Of a stretch of 64,000 nucleotides of DNA, positions 8,303 through 64,000 are shown piece by piece. Both the position numbers and the translations under genes were made by a program. The stretch's first letter is position 1. Each line of letters opens with the position of its first letter. This DNA is from a virus. The stretch is taken from IMG/VR virus record IMGVR_UViG_3300042346_001592, positions 1 to 64,000 of that record. One strand, 5' to 3'. The notes beneath the pieces were generated by a model that did no database searches, had not been told where the DNA came from, and was given only the letters and a program-made list of their open reading frames with translations.

Positions 8303-9724
8303 CTAACTAAAAATATCCACAATAACAGATAACCGCTTCGTTATCTGAGGCATGTTGAGCGGTTCAATAATAGAGTTTATCGGTGATAAAATTGATTTAT
8401 TGAACTGCTCATCAAGGTCTATTTCAGGAGCAAATTCGATAGGGTAAGCCCCTCGTATATAAGCGAATACTTCATTCATCGCTTTATTTTTCACATAATA
8501 ATATTTAATCTTCGTTCCTGATTTAATAAACTCGTATTTAACTTGATGATCCCTGTTTTGATGAAGTAGGTAGTTATAATACGCCGATGCTTTCACAGCA
8601 AAGTGTGTGCCTGATTCAAACTTTAGACCAGTCTTATCTTCTAAAACTTTCTTTTCGTATGAAGAGCAAGAGCTTTGCATACAAATATCATCAATTCTAT
8701 CAGGTGCACAAAGATCGAACTCTCGCTTCAAGTTTTTAACTAGCTTCAATAACTCTTTGATATTGAAACTATCTGGATTCTGAAAGAGATATTTAATAAC
8801 ATCTACAATTTTATCACGAGCAAAAAGTGGTGTTGAAGAACGAACAAGTTCTACACCTTTCGGGAAGATATATTTAAACCTATCGTAGTTAATACCATCC
8901 TCATATACAATGTGTTGAATGTATTTCTTTTTAGCTACATTGATAATAGATTCCGAAATACGTTCAAGCTCAAAATCTTGACGATTATCTACACCAAAAG
9001 AAGCCGCATAGGATTCCAGTTTTTCTGAAAAATATCCAGCGTATCTAAACTGGTCAATACCATGAATAAAATCAAGCTCTTTAGACCAGTTCCATCTAAC
9101 ATCGTTTGTGATAGAATTTTTTTCTAAAATCTCGAGAAGTTTTCTGTTTTTAGCCCAGGCGCCGTCGATGATGATTCCAACACCTTTATTCTCGGAAACA
9201 AACTCATCGAATTCATCAAGATTTTGTGTGGATAACTTTGTATAGGTTGTAGATTTTGGCTGATTTGCTCCCCAGAGAATGATATGATCTTTTTTGAGTT
9301 TATCTAAATTATCAAAAAATAAGTTTTGCCACTCGCAATGTGCGATTACCGGTTGAAATGAAACAAAAACCGAATCGGTATCAGCGTAAATTGAAACTTC
9401 ATTACCGGGAGTATTTAAGATTTGACGTGGATTTTTTATACAAAGTTTTCGATGAAGCTCTGTATCTAGATGCCACTTTTGATACCAATACTCTTGATTT
9501 ACACGATCCATTGTTTGGGTGAGATCCCTTCCTTGTGCGGTGATAGTTGAAGCTACGTTGTTGTTATAAAGAACAAAATAGCTGTTAGCAAAAGCTCCGT
9601 AACTACCGTTGAGAACAAGTTTCAAGGCGTTTTGCATAGCGTTGTAGAAATCAACTTCTTCTTTTATCTTTTCTGCTTTTTCTTTAAGTTCTGCTATTTC
9701 TTTTAAGGTTTGTTCTCTAGTCAT
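8303..9724 (-). CDS. Family-B DNA polymerase, C-terminal part only
   Basis: This is the palm-thumb half of a T4 gp43-like polymerase. Motif B (fingers) is at residues 35-43 (KLVLNGSYG) and motif C with the catalytic aspartates at 113-118 (YADTDS); a later GVELVRSSTP segment is typical of T4-like polymerases. The 473-residue protein starts only about 35 residues before motif B, so the 3'-5' exonuclease and motif A (DxxSLYP), some 500 residues, are missing. The gene directly upstream is the probable sliding clamp, so the N-terminal half is not adjacent and none is seen in the window. It is most likely one half of a split polymerase. Confidence 0.85.
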   Translation of the reverse strand: MTREQTLKEIAELKEKAEKIKEEVDFYNAMQNALKLVLNGSYGAFANSYFVLYNNNVASTITAQGRDLTQTMDRVNQEYWYQKWHLDTELHRKLCIKNPRQILNTPGNEVSIYADTDSVFVSFQPVIAHCEWQNLFFDNLDKLKKDHIILWGANQPKSTTYTKLSTQNLDEFDEFVSENKGVGIIIDGAWAKNRKLLEILEKNSITNDVRWNWSKELDFIHGIDQFRYAGYFSEKLESYAASFGVDNRQDFELERISESIINVAKKKYIQHIVYEDGINYDRFKYIFPKGVELVRSSTPLFARDKIVDVIKYLFQNPDSFNIKELLKLVKNLKREFDLCAPDRIDDICMQSSCSSYEKKVLEDKTGLKFESGTHFAVKASAYYNYLLHQNRDHQVKYEFIKSGTKIKYYYVKNKAMNEVFAYIRGAYPIEFAPEIDLDEQFNKSILSPINSIIEPLNMPQITKRLSVIVDIFS

Positions 9725-53210: not shown

Positions 53211-54146
53211 ATGAATATAAATAAAAAGTACCTCATAACAGGATCTGATGGATTAGTGGGTTCTGCTTTGAAAAGATTATTAGGACAAGGACATATTTTT
53301 CACGAAAAAAAAGAAATAGATCTATTGAATAGAGAAGAAACAAAAGAATATTTTCGATATCACTGCGAGAATAATGGAGTAAATGCTGTTATACACTGCG
53401 CCGCAAAAGTTGGAGGTGTTCAAGCCAACATGAACAACAACAAAGATTTTTTTTTACAAAATTTTATTATAAACAACAATGTGGTAGAATCTCTCATAGA
53501 AAATGAAGTTCCTTTTTTTGTAAATCTTCTTTCGACTTGTATTTTTCCAGATAAAAATATTCTTTATCCATTAACATCGGACCAAATCAATATGGGTGAT
53601 CCTCATCCTTCTAACCACGGATATGCATTCGCAAAGAGACTTTCTGGTGATTTAACCAAAATGATAAGAAAAATTTATGGACACAACTGGATCTCAGTGG
53701 TTCCAACGAATGTTTATGGTGAATTCGACAATTTCAACTTAGAGAACGGTCACTTGGTACCCGCTATAATCCATAGGTCTTTTTTATCCAAAACAAGTTC
53801 ACAACCTATGATTTTGTGGGGGGATGGTAGCCCTCTCAGACAACTCATTTATTCGGAAGATTTAGCTAGATTGATAATCTGGGCTCTTGAAAATTGGAAT
53901 GTAGACAAACCTTTTATGGCTGTAAACCCAAAAGAACATAGTGTTTTAGAAATAGCAACAATTATTTGCGAAAAAATGGAAATATTATCTAAAGATCTCA
54001 TTCTAGACCCAAATAAACCAACAGGACAATTTAAGAAAACAGCATCCACCGATGCACCCACAGATTTCAAATTCACAGATTTGCACTTAGGGATAGAAAA
54101 AACTATAACTTGGTTTAAAAAAAATTATCCCAACATTAGATCATGA
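53211..54146 (+). CDS. GDP-fucose synthase / ColC-like epimerase-reductase
   Basis: An extended SDR enzyme: NAD(P)-binding YLITGSDGLVGSALKRLL near the N-terminus, the AAKVGGVQANM segment, catalytic STCIFP, and YAFAKR as the YxxxK pair (about residue 140). These are hallmarks of GDP-4-keto-6-deoxymannose 3,5-epimerase/4-reductase (Fcl/WcaG). ColC, which reduces GDP-4-keto-3,6-dideoxymannose to GDP-L-colitose, belongs to the same family and is the more likely role next to a ColD-like gene. It overlaps that gene by 4 nt. Confidence 0.75.
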   Translation: MNINKKYLITGSDGLVGSALKRLLGQGHIFHEKKEIDLLNREETKEYFRYHCENNGVNAVIHCAAKVGGVQANMNNNKDFFLQNFIINNNVVESLIENEVPFFVNLLSTCIFPDKNILYPLTSDQINMGDPHPSNHGYAFAKRLSGDLTKMIRKIYGHNWISVVPTNVYGEFDNFNLENGHLVPAIIHRSFLSKTSSQPMILWGDGSPLRQLIYSEDLARLIIWALENWNVDKPFMAVNPKEHSVLEIATIICEKMEILSKDLILDPNKPTGQFKKTASTDAPTDFKFTDLHLGIEKTITWFKKNYPNIRS

Positions 54147-55297
54147 AAAAAATTACCTTAATTAAAGATACAATAGATGAGCATGATATCGGAAATTTAA
54201 TAAACTGGTTACAAAAAAATCCTAGATTGACCAAAGGTGATTATACTATTCAATTCGAACAAGAATGGTCAAAATGGTTAGGTGTAAAATTTTCAGTTTT
54301 CGTCAATTCAGGGTCATCAGCAAATTTAGCATCAATATATTCACTTTATTTATCTGGTAAATTAAAAAACAAAAAAGTGGTAATTCCTGCTGTGTCGTGG
54401 GCTACTACAGTTTCACCAATAATTCAACTAGGCCTGGATCCAATAATGTGTGATTGTGATAGAGAAAATTTGGGTTTGGATATAAATTCACTACAAAAAA
54501 TAATAGAATTTGAAGATCCTGGTGCTATAATACTAGTTCATGTTCTTGGAGTACCCAATAAAATGGATGAAATAATAGATATATGTAAAAAAAATAATAT
54601 TTTATTGGTAGAAGATACCTGCGAATCTATTGGTTCAATGTATAGAGGCAAAAAATTAGGAAATTTCGGGGATATTTCAACTTTTTCATTTTATTTTGGT
54701 CACCATATGTCAACAATAGAAGGTGGTATGATATCTACCGATAATGAGGAATTATACCATATTTTATTATCTATAAGATCGCATGGATGGGATAGAGATT
54801 TACCAAAATCAAAACAAAAAGATCTCAGAAAAAAATATTCTATTGATGATTTTAGTGCACTTTATACCTTTTATTACCCTGGTTTTAATATAAGATCTAC
54901 GGATCTACAAGCTTTTATAGGCCTGGAACAACTAAAAAAAATCAACGATATAATAGATAAAAGAAATAAAAATTATGAATTTTATCACAGTCAAATAAAA
55001 AATAATTTTTGGAAAATTGAACCGCCGAATGATTCTTTTATAAGCAACTTTGCCTATCCAATAATTTCACCAAGCAGATCTAATTTAATAAAAGAGTTAG
55101 AAAAAAACAATATTGAATGTAGACCACTCATTTGTGGTTCTATGTCAAAACAACCATTCTGGTATGAAAGATATGGTCAAGGTTCTTTCCCAAATAGTAA
55201 TCTTGTGCATGAATTAGGAATTTACGTGCCAAACAACCATCAACTAGAAAGTGAGGAAATAAAATTAATAGTAGAAGTAATTAATAAATCTATATGA
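54143..55297 (+). CDS. ColD-like PMP-dependent sugar 3-dehydratase
   Basis: A DegT-fold enzyme (SGSSANLASIYS, VPAVSWATTVSP-type region, EDTCESIGS) whose active site reads FSFYFGHHMSTIEGG with His187-His188 instead of the PLP-binding Lys. The His-His form is diagnostic for the pyridoxamine-phosphate dehydratases: ColD (GDP-4-keto-6-deoxymannose 3-dehydratase; catalytic His188) and the CDP-sugar enzyme RfbH/E1. Flanking genes gmd and fcl/colC favour ColD. The product would be a GDP-3,6-dideoxyhexose on the route to colitose. Confidence 0.8.
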   Translation: MKKITLIKDTIDEHDIGNLINWLQKNPRLTKGDYTIQFEQEWSKWLGVKFSVFVNSGSSANLASIYSLYLSGKLKNKKVVIPAVSWATTVSPIIQLGLDPIMCDCDRENLGLDINSLQKIIEFEDPGAIILVHVLGVPNKMDEIIDICKKNNILLVEDTCESIGSMYRGKKLGNFGDISTFSFYFGHHMSTIEGGMISTDNEELYHILLSIRSHGWDRDLPKSKQKDLRKKYSIDDFSALYTFYYPGFNIRSTDLQAFIGLEQLKKINDIIDKRNKNYEFYHSQIKNNFWKIEPPNDSFISNFAYPIISPSRSNLIKELEKNNIECRPLICGSMSKQPFWYERYGQGSFPNSNLVHELGIYVPNNHQLESEEIKLIVEVINKSI

Positions 55298-56286
55298 AAA
55301 AAGTATTAATAACTGGAATAAACGGCCAAGATGGATCTTATCTGGCGGAGTTTTTATTAGAAAAAAATTATAAGGTCTTTGGAACTTTAAAACGTAATTC
55401 GGTATCAGAAAACCAAACATACAGAATAGAAAAAATACACGATAGTGTTAATCTCGATTATGCCGATATGACCGATCTATCCTCGTTGATAAGTGTTATA
55501 AAAAAAGTAAAACCAGACGAAATATATAATCTTGCGGCTCAGTCACATGTTCGTATATCATTCGACCAGCCAATTTATACAGCTAACGTAACGGCCATAG
55601 GTACTCTGAATTTGTTAGAAGCAGTGAAAATTATAGATACAAACATCAAAGTTTATCAAGCCTCTTCTTCTGAAATGTTTGGAAATAATATTGATCCTGA
55701 TGGTTTTCAAAGAGAAACAACACCTATGAGTCCGGTCTCACCCTATGGATGTTCCAAAGTTTTTAGCTACAATATATGTAGAAATTATAGATATTCCTAT
55801 GGTTTATTTGTATCTAATGGTATATTATTTAATCACGAATCACCCAGAAGAGGAACAAATTTCGTGACTAACAAGGTATGTAAAGAAGCAGTAAGAATTA
55901 GTCTTGGATTATCTGAAAGACTAAAACTAGGTAATCTCGAGGCCACAAGAGATTGGGGACACGCAAAAGATTATGTTAAGGCTATGTGGCTTATTTTACA
56001 ATTGAAAAAGCCAGATGATTTTGTGTGCTCAACAGGTTTATCACATTCAGTTAGAGATTTGTGTGAATATGTTTTTTCTAAATTGAAATTAGATTACAAA
56101 AACCACGTAGAAATTGATCAAAAATTCTTGAGGCCAGAAGAACTGAACCATCTGAAAGGCGATAGTAGTAAACTCATTTCAGCTACCGGTTGGAAACCCG
56201 AATATAATTTTGAGAGTATGTTGGATGAAATGATTGAATATTGGTTAGGTTTTTACAATAAACAAACAGATAAGAATATAGAATAA
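55294..56286 (+). CDS. gmd: GDP-mannose 4,6-dehydratase
   Basis: All hallmarks are present: GINGQDGSYLAEFLL, AAQSHVRISFDQP, the catalytic SSSEMFG, YGCSK (YxxxK) and NHESPRRGTNFVT. Length (330 aa) matches Gmd. It makes GDP-4-keto-6-deoxy-D-mannose, the common precursor of GDP-fucose, GDP-rhamnose, GDP-perosamine and GDP-colitose. It overlaps the ColD-like gene by 4 nt; together with the upstream ColC/Fcl-like gene this is a compact GDP-sugar operon. Confidence 0.95.
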   Translation: MKKVLITGINGQDGSYLAEFLLEKNYKVFGTLKRNSVSENQTYRIEKIHDSVNLDYADMTDLSSLISVIKKVKPDEIYNLAAQSHVRISFDQPIYTANVTAIGTLNLLEAVKIIDTNIKVYQASSSEMFGNNIDPDGFQRETTPMSPVSPYGCSKVFSYNICRNYRYSYGLFVSNGILFNHESPRRGTNFVTNKVCKEAVRISLGLSERLKLGNLEATRDWGHAKDYVKAMWLILQLKKPDDFVCSTGLSHSVRDLCEYVFSKLKLDYKNHVEIDQKFLRPEELNHLKGDSSKLISATGWKPEYNFESMLDEMIEYWLGFYNKQTDKNIE

Positions 56287-56326: not shown

Positions 56327-57171
56327 ATGTCATACATAACAAAAACAAATTTAACTCTGAATGCTTTTTTCGGTTCGCAGATTACACAGTTTGCTGGTCT
56401 ATATGCTGTTTCTAGACATTTAGGAATAGAAATAAAAATTTTTCGAGAATATATAAATACCATCTGGGACAATAAATGTTATCCTATTCAACTATTTAAT
56501 GCCTTTGAATTAGATCATTATCTATGTTCAACCGAAGATGTCCAACCAATAGATAAAACTTATAATTTACAGAATACAATAAAAGATGATGATGTATTTA
56601 AATTGGATTCGAATTTTAATTGGGATATCCAGGGTTATTTTCATACATATCATTATTGGCATGAATATAGGAATGATTTAATCAAAATATTGAATTTCAA
56701 AAAAGAAATTACAGAATTAGCAAAAAAAAAAATATCGAACTCATCAAAGGTAGTGATCAAATACCAATAATATCACTACACGTTCGTAGAGGTGATTACC
56801 TACAACTTTCATCTTTGAATTTATCACTCAACTATTTCAAAAAATCCATATCTATTTTTTCAACTTTGTTTGAAAAATTTAAAATTGTTGTTTTTTCAGA
56901 TGATATATCCTGGTGTAAGGATAATATCATTAGTGAACATATATACTTTTCAGAAAATAATTCAAATCATGTAGATATGTGTATGATGACTATGTGCGAT
57001 CATAATATTATAGCAAATAGCAGTTTTAGTTTTTGGGGCGCGTATTTGAATCAACATCAAAATAAGATTGTAATTTGTCCTAAAATGTATATTGGTCTAA
57101 GTGACCAAATTCATCAATTTATTAATTATAACTGGTATCTGAAAGAATGGATTTCTTTAGATATAATCTGA
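56327..57171 (+). CDS. GT11 fucosyl/colitosyltransferase, frameshifted at A11
   Basis: The first frame (56327-56770) carries the N-terminal half of a GT11 alpha-1,2-fucosyltransferase. It is interrupted at the A11 tract (56722-56732); reading one base back restores a frame through HVRRGDYLQL (the GT11 H-x-R-R-x-D motif) to a stop at 57171. Total length then fits GT11 (about 280 aa). The break could be phase variation, programmed slippage or a sequencing error. With gmd and ColD-like genes upstream, the donor may be GDP-fucose or GDP-colitose. Confidence 0.7.
56722..56732 (+). repeat. A11 homopolymer at the frameshift
   Basis: Eleven consecutive A bases lie exactly where the two reading frames of the GT11 gene meet. 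Gaining one A or losing two would rejoin the frames; slippery A-runs also permit -1 ribosomal frameshifting. Confidence 0.85.
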
Positions 57172-57188: not shown

Positions 57189-57974
57189 CTATTTTTTCAT
57201 AGAATGGTATACATTTTTTATACCTTGTTCTGTACCAACATATTCTAAAAGCATTTGAGGAACGCCACAATACTTTTCTGCTACTCCATGTTGTTCAATT
57301 CTAATATTAACTTTGTGACTATCTAATTCATTAATTATATTTGCAATGTCTAATAAACTATACGATTTTTGATATGAACAATCTATTTCTTTTGGTGGAT
57401 TTTCATTTTGAATATAATAATCAACCAATGAAACTAAATCTTTCATATAAAAGAAATCCATAAATTTATCTTGGTGTATAATTATTTGCTCTTTATTTAT
57501 GTATCGTTTTATATTTCCTTTAATAAATCGTGTATCTAACTCATTTTCATCAAACACAGCAAATATCCTAATATTGTAAAAATTTTCTTGCTCCAATATA
57601 GATTTAGCTATTACTCTTTTACTCAACCCATATGGAGATTCTGGTTGAGTTATTTCTGCACCCGAACCAAAGTGGATTAATTTTCCAAATCTATCCCTAC
57701 AATTGAGCAGGTTATAATACATTTGAAGGTTATTATCCATATCATTGGTAATATCCTCTTTAAGTCTACTACCACCGCTTACAGCACAATGAATTACTAC
57801 ATCAAAATATTTGTGTTTTAGATATGAATCCAATACTTTAAAATGATTTAAATCAAAGTTATTTCTGGTTAGTGTGGTTATTTCATATGAATTTTTCAAT
57901 GAATTATATAAACTTTTAGCTATATAACCATTACCACCTGTTATTAATACTTGTCGCTTATTTTCTATTGGCAT
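57189..57974 (-). CDS. NAD(P)-dependent SDR epimerase/reductase
   Basis: An extended SDR with the dinucleotide motif VLITGGNGYIAKSL near the N-terminus, the HCAVSGG segment, SGAEITQPESPYGLSKR (YxxxK, about residue 115) and a later FFYMKDLV. At 261 aa it is shorter than most nucleotide-sugar epimerases. It is the last gene of the minus-strand arm, converging on the GT11 gene. A reductase or epimerase step on a nucleotide sugar is likely; the substrate is unknown. Confidence 0.75.
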   Translation of the reverse strand: MPIENKRQVLITGGNGYIAKSLYNSLKNSYEITTLTRNNFDLNHFKVLDSYLKHKYFDVVIHCAVSGGSRLKEDITNDMDNNLQMYYNLLNCRDRFGKLIHFGSGAEITQPESPYGLSKRVIAKSILEQENFYNIRIFAVFDENELDTRFIKGNIKRYINKEQIIIHQDKFMDFFYMKDLVSLVDYYIQNENPPKEIDCSYQKSYSLLDIANIINELDSHKVNIRIEQHGVAEKYCGVPQMLLEYVGTEQGIKNVYHSMKK

Positions 57975-58015
57975 ATATTAGATTATATATGTAATAAACT
58001 CTTTTATTTTTTTGT

Positions 58016-58771
58016 TTATTTTTTTCTAAATACAGCTAAATAATTTACTAATTGTTTGTCTAAAACCATTTCTACAAGTTCAAAACTATCTTGAAGTTCT
58101 TGGTTTTGTTTATCATGTAAAAAATGAGATTTAATTACTCCAGTATGTTCAGCCATTAAAAGATCTTCTGTAAGTAATGAATTGTCATATTTAAATTTAC
58201 CTCGTGTATATCTTGGATTTTGTAAGTCTTCCATAAAATAATATCCACCTGATTTAATAATATCTTTGGCTTGCCATAAACTTACAATCATATGATTAGG
58301 CCAATGACTACCATCTTCTACAAAGAAATCAAAATCATTAGGGCATTCTTGTTTAATTTCATTCCAATCACAAAAATTTCCTTGATCAGCATATATAAAA
58401 TTAACTCCCCATTCATTAATCATATTGATTTCTTCTATTTTATCTGTCAAATATGAGCCCCAAAAATTATCAACACAATATAAATCAATATCTTTAAAAT
58501 AAGAAAGCCACATTTTAGGAGAGGCATAAGGAAATCTTTTATCGCAAATCCCTATTTCAAATAATTTAATAGAGGTTTGTCTGTATGGAGCCATATATTT
58601 TTCATAAGTTTCTGTGTAACCCCAACATATGTGTTCCGGCCAGTCTTTTCCCCATGAAAGAGTAGCCTTATCAGCTGTACCTTTATCTGTTTCTAGATTA
58701 TTAGCTATCTCTGTTAGAGTTTTACTTTTATCAAAAAAAGTATTGTTTTTTGTTTTTTTAAAAAATTGCAT
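58016..58771 (-). CDS. SAM-dependent methyltransferase
   Basis: A class I methyltransferase of the type found with macrolide and sugar clusters: NLETDKGTADK near residue 30, the SAM-binding strand IKLFEIGI (about 69-76), YCVDNFWG (about 98-105), FDFFVEDGSHWPNHMIVSL (about 141) and IIKSGGYYFMEDL. It probably methylates a hydroxyl group of a sugar. It is followed after 41 nt by the SDR gene. The precise substrate is unknown. Confidence 0.7.
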   Translation of the reverse strand: MQFFKKTKNNTFFDKSKTLTEIANNLETDKGTADKATLSWGKDWPEHICWGYTETYEKYMAPYRQTSIKLFEIGICDKRFPYASPKMWLSYFKDIDLYCVDNFWGSYLTDKIEEINMINEWGVNFIYADQGNFCDWNEIKQECPNDFDFFVEDGSHWPNHMIVSLWQAKDIIKSGGYYFMEDLQNPRYTRGKFKYDNSLLTEDLLMAEHTGVIKSHFLHDKQNQELQDSFELVEMVLDKQLVNYLAVFRKK

Positions 58772-58855
58772 ATTATTATTGGTTTATCGGTTTAAAATTT
58801 AGTGTGGAGTATAAGCTTTTTATAATATAATTGTTACCTCTTGTGATTAATATTT

Positions 58856-59890
58856 TCATAAAATAGTGTGATTAAACTTATTTGAAATTAAAAGAAATTC
58901 CAATAATATAGAATCTTCTATAGGTATACCATTAATCTTTCTATGTTCATATGACATTTTTTCTTTATCACCTGCTATCATAACATCATTTGTTCCCACT
59001 TTTGGTAAATTCCTAATTTGAGTAGCCATATCTGAAAGATAACCTTTAAACCAATCAACAGATACAAACTTAGAGATATCTAACGCCATAAAAAAGTGGC
59101 TTATATTTCTATCATATGTTATGGATAAGTCATAAAGGGGTGCAATCTGCTTACTCATTGGGCCCGTGGTCAGTCCTGAACATAATATTTCAATAAACAT
59201 TCCTAGTCCAAATCCTTTATAGCCGCCAACACTATTGAGTGATACGGCTTGATGAGGATCTATAGTTGGTTGTCCATTATTATCATAGGCCCATTCTAAT
59301 TTTAGGGGCTTATTTTGTCTTTTATAATTTTTAACTTTATTCCAAGGTATTGTAGAAGTTGCCATATCTAAACAATAAGGATTTTCATCTCTCATTGGGG
59401 CTGAAAAAGCTATTGGATTAGTTCCAAAAAAAGTTTCTTTGCTACCATAAGCATTGACCAATGCTTCAGTATTAGTTAATGCCAACCCAATCATTTCATA
59501 TCTTGCAGCAATATCAGTAAAGTACCAAGCTGCACCGAAATGTGTTGAGTTCTTTACACTAACAACCCCAATTCCAGTATGTTGTGCTAATTGAATTGCT
59601 TCTAACATAGCTTTTTTTCCAGCAAAATGTCCAAATGTATTTTTAGCATCTAGTATAGATACAGAAGGACTTTTTTGCTTTATTTCAATGTTAGAATTCT
59701 TGTTGAGCCTATTAAGATTTAATTCCTTATAATAGTGTGGAAATAAGTGAATACCATGAGAGTCAACACCTTTTAAAGAGGTTTCAATTAGCGATTCAGT
59801 TACTGTATTAGCAACTTCAGCCTCAACACCAGTTGATAACATACACTCATACATTACTGCTCTGAATTTGTTAGAATCAATTAAAACCAT
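58856..59890 (-). CDS. Ldh-family (malate/L-lactate-type) oxidoreductase
   Basis: Belongs to the NAD(P)-dependent Ldh/YlbC/YjmC family, shown by GVDSHGIHLF (about residue 40), VKNSTHFGAAWYF (about 110), NAYGSKETFFGTNPIAFSAP and GYKGFGLGMFIEIL. Members reduce alpha-keto acids such as pyruvate, oxaloacetate or sugar-derived keto acids. The start is the ATG at 59890, within the 3' end of the HAD gene. Placement in the glycan arm suggests it acts on a keto-acid substituent or precursor, not central metabolism. Confidence 0.8.
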   Translation of the reverse strand: MVLIDSNKFRAVMYECMLSTGVEAEVANTVTESLIETSLKGVDSHGIHLFPHYYKELNLNRLNKNSNIEIKQKSPSVSILDAKNTFGHFAGKKAMLEAIQLAQHTGIGVVSVKNSTHFGAAWYFTDIAARYEMIGLALTNTEALVNAYGSKETFFGTNPIAFSAPMRDENPYCLDMATSTIPWNKVKNYKRQNKPLKLEWAYDNNGQPTIDPHQAVSLNSVGGYKGFGLGMFIEILCSGLTTGPMSKQIAPLYDLSITYDRNISHFFMALDISKFVSVDWFKGYLSDMATQIRNLPKVGTNDVMIAGDKEKMSYEHRKINGIPIEDSILLEFLLISNKFNHTIL

Positions 59891-60266
59891 TCTCAATAAA
59901 GTTTAAAGTATCATTCCAATTATTAAATCTATAACCATTATCATCTATGTATAAAAAGGCCCTAGGTTTCTCTGATGTTATTTCTGAGATGTAATCTAAT
60001 ATATTGTGCTTCTCTAACCACTCAGATACAAGTTGAGTGCCAGTCTTACCATTTACTAGTGGTCGGTTTGGTTTTGCCTTGGCGGTAAATATGATTATGT
60101 TGTATTGTGTAGCTAGTTTTTTAATAGCATCTAGTGATCCAGGTAAAGGTTCACCATAACAGGTGCCATCGTGAAAACCCTTGTCGAAGTTGTGAATGAC
60201 CCCATCAAAGTCAATCGCAATGTTATTGACATCATTTTCAAATCCAGGTGGGAATTTATCTATCAT
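59877..60266 (-). CDS. Small HAD-family hydrolase
   Basis: HAD signatures: IAIDFDGVIHNF (motif I, about 17-28), IIIFTAKAKPN (motif II, about 58), a Lys near residue 100 and AFLYIDDNGYRF (motif IV, about 103-114). Only 129 aa, without a large cap domain. Probably a phosphatase for a sugar phosphate or related intermediate made by the neighbouring genes. It overlaps the cupin gene by 11 nt and the Ldh gene start, so expression is coupled. Confidence 0.75.
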   Translation of the reverse strand: MIDKFPPGFENDVNNIAIDFDGVIHNFDKGFHDGTCYGEPLPGSLDAIKKLATQYNIIIFTAKAKPNRPLVNGKTGTQLVSEWLEKHNILDYISEITSEKPRAFLYIDDNGYRFNNWNDTLNFIENGFN

Positions 60267-60936
60267 ACTTTTGTATTGTCATTATAATAGTATTGTCAGT
60301 CACACCATCTAGTTGACTTGATACTTGTTTAATAATATTTGCGAAACCTACATCACCAGGAATAGTGACTAGGTGAGCTCTGTTGTTGATGTTTCGAACT
60401 AAACCACCTCTAAGAAATATGAGTAGATCTGTGTCTTTTTTTTTGTTTATAACATCTATGTCATTTATGTTTTCTACTGTAAGAGTGTTCCCACCAAAAT
60501 CGTAGATGTATGATTGGTTAAGTTCCGGTTCTTTGATCCAAAGGCAATCAGACTCTTTCGGATACTCAAAGCTATTATTCTCATATGGTTTAGACTCTCT
60601 TCCATATTTATCAAACAATCGAACCAGGTCATGTTTATCTTTTGGAGTCTCAATCTCAAGTAATAATACCTGGTCGGATAATGCTTTAGTTTGATGAAAC
60701 AATCCTCTACGGATCATAACCTTATCTAAACCTTGTAGTATTCTCTTATCACTTAAAAAAGATATCTCTGCAATTCCGTCTAAAAGAACTAATCCTGTGG
60801 TTTTAGTTGGGTGGCAATGCATTGAGGTACTTTGATCTTTCTTAATATTAAGAAACCACAAACCTACTTCCTCATTCTCATAAGCAAGATACTCATACCC
60901 CCATGGTTTTTTTACAATGTTTTTATTATGACTCAT
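60256..60936 (-). CDS. Cupin-domain protein, 226 aa
   Basis: The N-terminal half is a cupin (KPWGYEYLAYEN, STSMHCHPTKTTGLVLLDG with two His, then GLFHQTKAL), of the kind related to mannose-6-phosphate isomerase and sugar-binding cupins. A second cupin-like half (about residues 145-220) lacks clear metal ligands. It overlaps the DJ-1/PfpI gene and the HAD gene by 11 nt each. Likely role: sugar binding, isomerisation or epimerisation within the cluster. Confidence 0.65.
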   Translation of the reverse strand: MSHNKNIVKKPWGYEYLAYENEEVGLWFLNIKKDQSTSMHCHPTKTTGLVLLDGIAEISFLSDKRILQGLDKVMIRRGLFHQTKALSDQVLLLEIETPKDKHDLVRLFDKYGRESKPYENNSFEYPKESDCLWIKEPELNQSYIYDFGGNTLTVENINDIDVINKKKDTDLLIFLRGGLVRNINNRAHLVTIPGDVGFANIIKQVSSQLDGVTDNTIIMTIQKYDR

Positions 60937-61480
60937 GACTTAACTTATTATAGGTTTCTATTAACTCTTTCATCCAATGGCCAACCCATTTATAGTGTGG
61001 ACTACTTATAATATTATTATCAACTACTGCGGGTGCATCAACAAATATAGCTCCGGCATTCCAAATATCTTGTTCCATGCTATAATAAGCAGACACTTTT
61101 CTTCCTTGTAAGATTTTTGCTGTGATAAGCATTTGCGCACCAGAACAGATGCTTCCAATAATCTTGCCTAGTTTATTCCATTTAATAATAAACTTAACTG
61201 CTGTAACTTCTAAACGAAGCTTTTCTAATGATATTACACCACCTGGGATGATAAGAATATCATATTCGTTTAGGAATTTTTCAAACTTGTCTAGATCTTG
61301 TAGATCCTTAAGCAAAAAATGACTTGGAATTGATCCTCCTAATATTCCTTTTACCTTATTGATAGTATTTGATATAACATCTACTTGAAATCCTTCTTCG
61401 AGTAGACGATAGTATGGATAAATGGCTTCGTAGTCTTTATAACCTTCATAGGTCATTATTAATGCTTTATTTTGTTTCAT
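60926..61480 (-). CDS. DJ-1/PfpI-family protein
   Basis: The nucleophile elbow is visible as IGSICSGAQML (about residue 108-118) with Cys, preceded by DILIIPGG (about 74-81); both are characteristic of the DJ-1/PfpI superfamily, which includes chaperones, glyoxalases and amidases. At 184 aa it is a standard single domain. Its neighbours are a ThDP enzyme upstream (gap 18 nt) and a cupin downstream (11 nt overlap). The role within a glycan cluster is not known. Confidence 0.75.
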   Translation of the reverse strand: MKQNKALIMTYEGYKDYEAIYPYYRLLEEGFQVDVISNTINKVKGILGGSIPSHFLLKDLQDLDKFEKFLNEYDILIIPGGVISLEKLRLEVTAVKFIIKWNKLGKIIGSICSGAQMLITAKILQGRKVSAYYSMEQDIWNAGAIFVDAPAVVDNNIISSPHYKWVGHWMKELIETYNKLSHES

Positions 61481-61498
61481 GTTGCTTTTATATTTTTA

Positions 61499-63250
61499 TT
61501 ATTTGTATATTGGTATGATCATTTCCTTCTCATATATTTCTTTTGGCAAAAACGGAAACATATTTTCAAGAGGCTGGGATATTAGTTTTCCATCATCTGT
61601 TTGTAGTGTAGCAGAAGTTGGGTAAATTTCTTCATTAGGGGGGCATATTATTTCGCATAAATAATATCCTTTATAATTGATAATTGTTTCTAGTTTTGCT
61701 TTTAGTTCATTTATATCGTTAATTCGAGTAAATGGAAATCCGTATGCATAAGCAATTTTTTCAGCATCAGGGAAGGATATTCCTGAAGATGGGCTTTCTC
61801 CAGATAGTCTTTGATTAAAGAATTTAATTTGAGTATTTCTAATAGATAGATAACCCCCATTATTTAATATAAACAATTTTATAGGTAACTTATTTTCAAC
61901 AATAGTTTGTAATTCTTGGATATTAAATTGAAAGGAACCCTCCCCTGTAACACCAATAATAGTTGAGTTTGGATTAGCAAAGCATGCTCCTATGGCAGCT
62001 GGCAATGCAAACCCCATTTCTCCTTGAGCTGAGGGGATTATAAGTTTATTATTAATTAAAGATTGAGCTAATACATAGTAAGATGAACCAGCATCTGTTA
62101 TCACAATTGAATCTTTAGATATTTCAGATAACTCTTTAGAAAAGGAATACATATTTAATTGGTTGATATCATCTCTATCAAAAACAGGCCACATATTTTT
62201 CCAATTAATACATTTACTTATCCACTCTTGATTATTATTTATATAATTCGAAGAGTCAGTTGCAAAAAAATTTGTCAAATCATCTTCAATTATTTGTTCA
62301 ATTTTTACAGTTTCTTTAAGATGTTCATTTTTATCAATATCAACAACTACAATTTTAGCTTTTCGACCGAATAAATGATATTGATAACCAGTTGCTGGTA
62401 TGCTCAATGATGTTCCCAATCCTATAATAAGATCTGAGTTGGCTACAGCAAAATTTCCTGCTCTAGTACCTTTTAAACCTATTCTGCCAACATATAGCGG
62501 GTGGTTTTCAGGGAGAAGATTAGTTCCTAGAAAAGTTACAGCTACTGGTATTTGGTGCTTCTCAACAAATTTTTTAAATGCTTGTTTGGTATTTGATAAG
62601 TTTATACCATTACCTGCTATAATAATAGGGCGTTTTGAATCATTTAAGTATCTCATAAGTACAGATACAGATTTATTATCTATTATTATATCATCAGGAG
62701 TATAATGATGTAGATTATTTTCATCAATTAAAGTAGATTGTATATCTAGGGGGATATCAATCCAAACAGGGCCTGGTCTGTTTGAAGTACATAAATGATA
62801 TGCCTTTTCTAGCTCGTATGCTATATCCTCAGCACTTTCAATCATAACGGCATATTTGGTAATAGATTCAACAATTTTAATTATATTTGCTTCTTGAACT
62901 CCTAATTTTCTTAAGGAAACTTTTTTTAAAAAAGTTGTATCTTTTTTATTAACTTGCCCAGATATAAACATAACTTTATGACTATCTTGCCAAGCATCTA
63001 AAAGTCCGGTTATTGTATTTGTGCTTCCACACCCTGTTGTTGGGATTACTACAGAAACATCATTAGTAACTTTAGTATAACCAACTGCTGCCATAGCACA
63101 TGCTTGTTCATGATGGCAGAATACAGGTTTAATATTACTTTGGGCAATAGCATCATTCAAAAACATAGCCCCACCTCCTGTTACTTCAAATACATGTTTA
63201 ATATTTTTTTGTTCTAAAAATGATGCTACATAATCGGCCACTCTTACCAT
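61499..63250 (-). CDS. Acetolactate-synthase-like ThDP enzyme
   Basis: A three-domain ThDP enzyme: the catalytic Glu in CHHEQACAMAAVGYT (about residue 48), a middle domain with RPIIIAGNGINLS, and the cofactor site GVTGEGSFQFNIQELQT (about 425) plus LFILNNGGYLSIRNTQ. This build matches acetolactate synthase and related carboligases or decarboxylases. In surface-glycan clusters such enzymes are thought to add or remove two-carbon units on sugars or acids. Here it may act with the Ldh-family and RmlB-like neighbours. Substrate unknown. Confidence 0.85.
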   Translation of the reverse strand: MVRVADYVASFLEQKNIKHVFEVTGGGAMFLNDAIAQSNIKPVFCHHEQACAMAAVGYTKVTNDVSVVIPTTGCGSTNTITGLLDAWQDSHKVMFISGQVNKKDTTFLKKVSLRKLGVQEANIIKIVESITKYAVMIESAEDIAYELEKAYHLCTSNRPGPVWIDIPLDIQSTLIDENNLHHYTPDDIIIDNKSVSVLMRYLNDSKRPIIIAGNGINLSNTKQAFKKFVEKHQIPVAVTFLGTNLLPENHPLYVGRIGLKGTRAGNFAVANSDLIIGLGTSLSIPATGYQYHLFGRKAKIVVVDIDKNEHLKETVKIEQIIEDDLTNFFATDSSNYINNNQEWISKCINWKNMWPVFDRDDINQLNMYSFSKELSEISKDSIVITDAGSSYYVLAQSLINNKLIIPSAQGEMGFALPAAIGACFANPNSTIIGVTGEGSFQFNIQELQTIVENKLPIKLFILNNGGYLSIRNTQIKFFNQRLSGESPSSGISFPDAEKIAYAYGFPFTRINDINELKAKLETIINYKGYYLCEIICPPNEEIYPTSATLQTDDGKLISQPLENMFPFLPKEIYEKEMIIPIYK

Positions 63251-64000
63251 ATAAACTTATTTTTATAATAATCGACAATCTGTGGAAGTTCATTATCAAA
63301 TTCTTTTTTTGGTTTCCATCCTAACTTTTGTAATTTAGAATCATCTAAAGCGTATCTAACATCTTGTCCTTGTCTTATATAAGAAAAATCAATATAATTA
63401 TCCAACTCTTCTAAATTTTTATTGTCTAATATACAAATTTTTTTCACAGTTTCCAAATTATTTTGCTCAAATCCGCCACAAATATTATAAATTTCGTTTT
63501 TAACTCCTGCGTTTACAATTGTGATTATCGCATCAGCAGTATCTTGTGCGTGCAACCAATTTCGTATTGGTGTCCCACCATTATGTAGTGGAACTTTTCT
63601 ACCTAACTTTAGATATTTGCAAGTTTTTGGTATTAACTTTTCAACATACTGGCCAATACCGTAATTATTTGTAGGCCTTACTATGATATATGGTAATCCA
63701 TATGTTCTTCCCCACGCCATAATTAACATATCAGCGGCTGCCTTTGTAGCCGAGTATGGGTTTGATGGTTTTAATAAATCTGTTTCAATATGCTCACCCT
63801 TTTCAATATCACCATAAACTTCATCGGTACTAAAATGTAATAATGTTGGTTTACTTATATTTTCTCCTCTATGATTTTTAATTAGTTCTAACAAATTATG
63901 AACTCCATTTATATTGGAGTGAATAAAATCATCACTGTTTGCTACTGAATTACCGACATGAGTTTCTGCCGCGGTATTTATTAAATAATCACAATCGTAT
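63244..64000 (-). CDS. RmlB-like nucleotide-sugar 4,6-dehydratase (5' end outside window)
   Basis: The visible 252 codons include AAETHVGNS and the catalytic STDEVYGDIEKG, YSATKAAADML (YxxxK) and RPTNNYGIGQYVEKLIPK. These are signatures of dTDP-glucose 4,6-dehydratase (RmlB) or a close relative. The gene runs off the right edge, so its start and Rossmann N-terminus are not seen. It overlaps the ThDP gene by 7 nt. The 4-keto-6-deoxy sugar it makes is presumably the entry substrate for this minus-strand arm. Confidence 0.88.
   Translation of the reverse strand, partial: YDCDYLINTAAETHVGNSVANSDDFIHSNINGVHNLLELIKNHRGENISKPTLLHFSTDEVYGDIEKGEHIETDLLKPSNPYSATKAAADMLIMAWGRTYGLPYIIVRPTNNYGIGQYVEKLIPKTCKYLKLGRKVPLHNGGTPIRNWLHAQDTADAIITIVNAGVKNEIYNICGGFEQNNLETVKKICILDNKNLEELDNYIDFSYIRQGQDVRYALDDSKLQKLGWKPKKEFDNELPQIVDYYKNKFIW

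Follow-up and report, generated by a model that had tools for sequence, protein, structure and literature searches.

In a large T4-like phage, a GDP-fucose-type sugar cassette ends with a gene for a fucosyltransferase-type protein of the GT11 family whose reading frame is broken precisely where eleven A's follow one another. The gene lies in the window, which is the whole stretch of DNA analyzed here and represents the initial 64 kb of an IMG/VR record of 142,003 bp. We favor, with a probability of roughly 55%, the reading that this accessory gene carries an OFF allele, leaky and reversible, that was produced by a recent slipped-strand frameshift. A slipped-strand indel at the long A run would have put the gene out of frame recently, and the present allele would be OFF under standard decoding, giving an N-terminal stub. 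As the rest of the gene is undamaged, the frame could be regained by another slip, and slippage of RNA polymerase (or the ribosome) on the A11 tract would probably still allow some full-length enzyme to be made. In this scheme we infer the slippage origin, the recency, the reversibility and the leaky expression, and the recency is argued solely from the lack of decay. Compared with a recent slip, an artefact, programmed frameshifting and a contingency switch kept by selection each appear less likely.

Position of the frame break and state of the product

Both halves of the gene tile the phage profile phrog_2644 (265 positions), the N-terminal half at 11-138 (E = 3.7e-10) and the C-terminal half at 137-253 (E = 7.2e-31). 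The curated cut-off of the Pfam GT11 model (PF01531, 23.9 bits) was exceeded by the C-terminal half alone (96 bits) and by the read-through sequence (101.5 bits), and the match extends beyond the second half only when the two frames are joined. The assignment to GT11 in the initial annotation was thus confirmed. Its second point, that one transferase is split into two halves in frames differing by -1 that meet at the A11 tract, was also borne out by a subfamily profile built from four intact relatives (272 model positions): frame 0 scored 160 bits over positions 1-133 and frame -1 scored 235 bits over positions 126-272, reaching the last residue.

The break can be placed within the tract itself. 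The sequence GC-A11-TATCG occupies 56720-56737 and contains exactly eleven A's. An invariant Ala codon (56720-56722) is read in frame 0 and an invariant Asn codon (56731-56733) in frame -1, with only A's between them, so that the frame must change inside the tract. That the frame changes exactly within the run is accounted for by slippage, but not by chance. The frame-0 product runs from MSYITKTNL to ITELAKKK and then through a short out-of-frame tail to its stop, and the -1 frame has no stop between 56677 and 57171. The latter carries the motif HVRRGDY (56779-56799), as had been noted for the restored frame, together with FSDD, DMCMMTMCDHNIIANSSFSFWG and the C-terminus, and the downstream half is intact.

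Table 1. Features of the sugar cassette and of the split GT11 gene (positions in the window)
Feature	Position	Strand	Basis or remarks
GDP-L-fucose synthase-like gene, intact	53211..54146	+	NCBIfam NF047922, 177 bits, below the cut-off of 500
DegT/DnrJ sugar aminotransferase, intact	54143..55297	+	PF01041, 251 bits
GDP-mannose 4,6-dehydratase, intact	55294..56286	+	PF16363, 390 bits; TIGR01472, 392 bits (cut-off 415)
GT11 fucosyltransferase-type gene, frame-split	56327-57171	+	two halves, frames differing by -1
N-terminal half, GT11 fucosyltransferase-like	56327..56770	+	frame 0, 147 aa, ORF list
Overlap of the two open frames, A11 within	56677..56770	+	94 nt
A11 homopolymer, site of the -1 frame change	56722..56732	+	sequence; identical in L003/G001
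C-terminal half, -1 frame, GDP-sugar-binding half of GT11	56731..57171	+	Pfam PF01531, phrog_2644
Weak predicted RNA structure 3' of the tract	56736..56786	+	8-bp stem, 14-nt loop, short outer helix; z -1.5 to -2.1 against shuffles

No PDB sequence match to the GT11 product was found. The modelled fold of an intact relative (L002, pLDDT 76.8) matched POFUT1, FUT8 and NodZ (E about 1e-6 to 1e-5), so that the HxRRGD donor-binding motif is accompanied by a GDP-fucose transferase fold, as far as the model of this relative represents it. In the same model the tract falls in the helix immediately before the HVRRGDY strand, where small changes in the number of lysines would plausibly be tolerated. 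The product is a putative fucosyltransferase; an alpha-1,2 linkage is not readable from the sequence.

In the -1 frame, no ATG, GTG or TTG is present ahead of the catalytic motif, the first TTG being at 56815. Normal translation should then give only the N-terminal stub, without the GDP-fucose-binding (catalytic) half, and no second GT11 able to substitute was found in the two records of this phage. On the other hand, the gene does not look like a decayed pseudogene: no additional stop or indel was found beyond the tract in about 280 codons of both frames, whereas under neutral drift the expected median number of substitutions to the first stop is 12 (95% by 52). This suggests that the break is recent or that the product is still used. 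Moreover, the C-terminal half differs from L002 at 36, 27 and 72 first, second and third codon positions, a strong third-position excess that points to past purifying selection; in the N-terminal half the excess is weaker (54/35/63).

The phage and the relatives of the gene

The GT11 gene starts 40 nt after the end of the GDP-mannose 4,6-dehydratase gene. Beyond it, a minus-strand cassette for sugars and small molecules (57189-64000) contains an acetolactate-synthase-like TPP enzyme, a PfpI-like protein, an Ldh2-like dehydrogenase, a methyltransferase-like protein and epimerases. The T4-like genes of the phage include those for UvsW helicase, baseplate wedge and DNA polymerase. The closest described relatives by UvsW are uncultured phage records of 635-642 kb (64% identity), and the record therefore probably covers only part of a huge-phage genome. 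No Shine-Dalgarno enrichment was detected upstream of the ORFs of this phage (G000, G001), and TAnnTTTG occurred upstream of ORFs 16 times against 7 expected (maximum over 100 shuffles, 17); this excess and the lack of Shine-Dalgarno enrichment suggest a Bacteroidota host. The phage also carries an array of 23 tRNA genes including tRNA-Lys(TTT) (L017:4885-9035), with A11 tracts at tRNA gene ends. DNA polymerase B is present as a separate C-terminal gene of 473 aa (8303-9724, minus strand; phrog_262 positions 486-839), and its N-terminal part was unmatched in both records. We considered whether this split pointed to a bad assembly and rejected the idea, because the huge phage LR756502 has the same gene (474 aa) at 63% identity; the split is therefore natural.

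Five intact relatives of the GT11 gene on other viral contigs (L002, L026, L028, L032 and L033), which are 57-66% identical to this GT11 or to L002, or closer, have a single open frame and do not retain the tract; a further subfamily relative (L030) is cut at its end. The spacing from Ala to HxRRGDY in the relatives fits, gap-free, a tract of the shorter in-frame class, so that the addition of A's would be the simplest event. The contigs compared gave 36 further GT11 matches, of which 2 were this locus, 5 ran off a contig end and 29 were others, some of them near-duplicates from related contigs. The GT11 glycosyltransferases of cyanophages and huge phages belong to the same family and to the same phrog_2644 (moron/auxiliary), and they often stand near a GDP-mannose dehydratase gene. 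In contrast to the gene studied here, 28 of the 29 other matches are read in a single frame. The exception (L116:8224-9054), which lies near a GDP-mannose dehydratase gene, has an in-frame nonsense codon; phage GT11 genes are thus lost by other means, too. Among the phage GT11 genes examined near GDP-mannose dehydratase genes, none had a comparable frame-breaking run, and no close relatives were found among 84,980 cellular genomes.

The A11 tract is the longest A run of the window and the only run of at least 10 inside a gene there. In 191 kb of this phage, coding A runs of at least 11 were as frequent as in synonymous-codon shuffles (3 seen versus 3.6 expected), so that in such AT-rich coding sequence runs of this length are expected by chance, and the tract may owe its origin to chance and have slipped afterwards. 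Coding runs of at least 9 A's were depleted (10 versus 17.5 expected; 0.5% of shuffles as low), which is consistent with slippage being costly in the genes of this phage. Another possible slippage site is a 125-aa frame containing A14, which stays open (L016:4663-5040; G000 about 108.7-109.0 kb) and for which no phage homologue was found.

Artefact, switch or recoding

A sequencing or assembly artefact, in which the true tract would be in frame and the gene intact, seems improbable to us. It is true that homopolymers are error-prone, and a broad survey of older genomes attributed isolated, homology-validated frameshifts mostly to sequencing errors (PMC3711429). However, a second record (IMGVR_UViG_3300042561_002062, 149,524 bp) shares an overlap of 100.5 kb with the first one, in which 3 substitutions but not a single indel were found. 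The GT11 locus, including A11, is identical in both, and every tract of at least 9 in the overlap has the same length in the two assemblies, even A14 and A12. The two assemblies are near-identical and possibly do not represent independent reads, but the same A11 length in the second one makes an isolated misread or assembly error unlikely. Exact-pattern and protein searches of IMG/VR for versions of this locus that differ in tract length returned only one other record, which also has A11. In favor of an artefact, the same phage has a second frame-broken gene, for a peptidoglycan-binding and amidase-type endolysin (L024:18563-19515, minus strand; G001 about 138.6-139.5 kb), which is interrupted at just four A's. 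This break lies outside the first record and is visible in one assembly only. On the other hand, the other genes with homologues in LR756502 are unbroken. Further headless genes were sought by a scan of coding potential, which gave eight segments, and no clear frameshift was seen in the five that were inspected.

It is similarly doubtful that the tract is kept by selection as a contingency switch, by which slippage would flip GT11 ON and OFF among progeny and diversify a glycan of the host surface or the virion. The locus has the usual anatomy of slipped-strand switching, namely a long mononucleotide run in the coding sequence of a surface-glycan gene, whose length decides the frame, with the frame otherwise intact. 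Switches of this kind are known both in a phage-borne glycan modifier, neuO of phage CUS-3 (PMC13001214), and in futC of Helicobacter pylori, which is switched by slippage (PMC2752801). Even if chance explains the existence of the run, as the shuffles allow, the run may be put to use. However, no variation in tract length is seen (A11 in two of two assemblies, which are near-identical and possibly not independent), and the tract is private to this locus, being absent from the intact relatives and having no equivalent in the phage GT11 genes near GDP-mannose dehydratase. Moreover, only this one of 112 distinct tracts of at least 9 A's splits a gene in the 2.4 Mb compared, in the pattern scanned, and these phages give no sign of using such switches. 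Hence, of the proposal in the initial annotation that GT11 is phase-variable at A11, the break at the tract and the intact downstream half stood, but neither variation in length nor a relative with the tract was found. The suggestion that the glycan varies among progeny gained no support, given the same A11 in the two assemblies and its absence from relatives. As the two genomes are nearly identical, they do not allow a permanently OFF allele to be distinguished from one phase of a switch, and the label "phase-variable switch" exceeds the evidence. The fullest form of this idea, a lytic huge phage with its own homopolymer contingency gene, mixed ON/OFF progeny diversifying the glycan of the virion or the infected cell, and transcriptional slippage supplying a low basal dose, is quite unlikely.

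The third alternative, that RNA-polymerase slippage or -1 ribosomal frameshifting on A11 yields a set fraction of full-length enzyme, also has a low probability. In-phase A AAA AAA heptamers are present in GCA AAA AAA AAA ATA, as expected of a slippery sequence; many bacteria show selection against slippage at a length of 9 A's (PMC1088944), which the tract exceeds; a tRNA-Lys(TTT) gene is present in the phage; a structure is predicted 4-18 nt downstream of the slippery site; and the second half has no separate start. However, the z-scores of this fold are only -1.5 to -2.1, an internal Shine-Dalgarno stimulator is unlikely in a phage with no Shine-Dalgarno enrichment, neither the tract nor the structure is conserved in the relatives, which are single-frame, and the truncated product has no evident role. 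The view that frameshifting sets the dosage found no support: in spite of the heptamer, the fold 3' of it is marginal, and conserved elements are lacking. Some leakage is expected at A11, not a programme.

A recent slip with some residual expression agrees with what is known of such tracts in bacteria, where slippage occurs on runs of at least 9 A's (PMC1088944, PMC5009743). Rescue is possible for genes broken in this way in Blochmannia, for which about 30% full-length transcripts were reported (PMC3017870), while in Buchnera a later survey found no frame-restoring transcription errors (PMC5574713), in which light the leaky rescue may be negligible.

Comparison with known systems

The slippery A heptamer at A11 presumably has a counterpart in futC (HP0093/HP0094), the H. 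pylori alpha-1,2-fucosyltransferase gene, which also belongs to GT11 and in which a repeat tract likewise separates two frames. A translational frameshift has been reported for futC, which contains poly-C and a mid-gene TAA repeat with documented variation (PMC2752801), whereas the tract of this phage is a poly-A for which variation was not observed. The comparison with the H. pylori phase-variable fucosyltransferase made in the initial annotation is therefore apt in kind. The pseudo-pseudogenes of Blochmannia and Buchnera (PMC1088944, PMC3017870) resemble the GT11 gene in that they lie in AT-rich genomes and are undamaged apart from one indel, which falls within a long run of A, and in their possible rescue by transcriptional slippage; visC of B. 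vafer even has its frameshift in an A11 (PMC3017870). They are, however, cellular genes of endosymbionts, some of them conserved across species, and not an accessory gene of one phage lineage known from sequence alone. The neuO gene of CUS-3 is likewise carried by a phage, modifies a surface glycan and has slippage-prone repeats within the coding sequence, but these repeats are heptanucleotides near the 5' end with shown ON/OFF variation, in contrast to the mid-gene homopolymer here, which is A11 in both assemblies.

Finally, gene callers would list this locus as a short hypothetical protein and a headless GT11 fragment. If reads had mixed tract lengths, they would point to a large, probably lytic phage that diversifies its glycan enzymes by means of a homopolymer. 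As it stands, the locus is a clear and well-located example of a phage accessory gene that is frame-broken at a slippage-prone tract.
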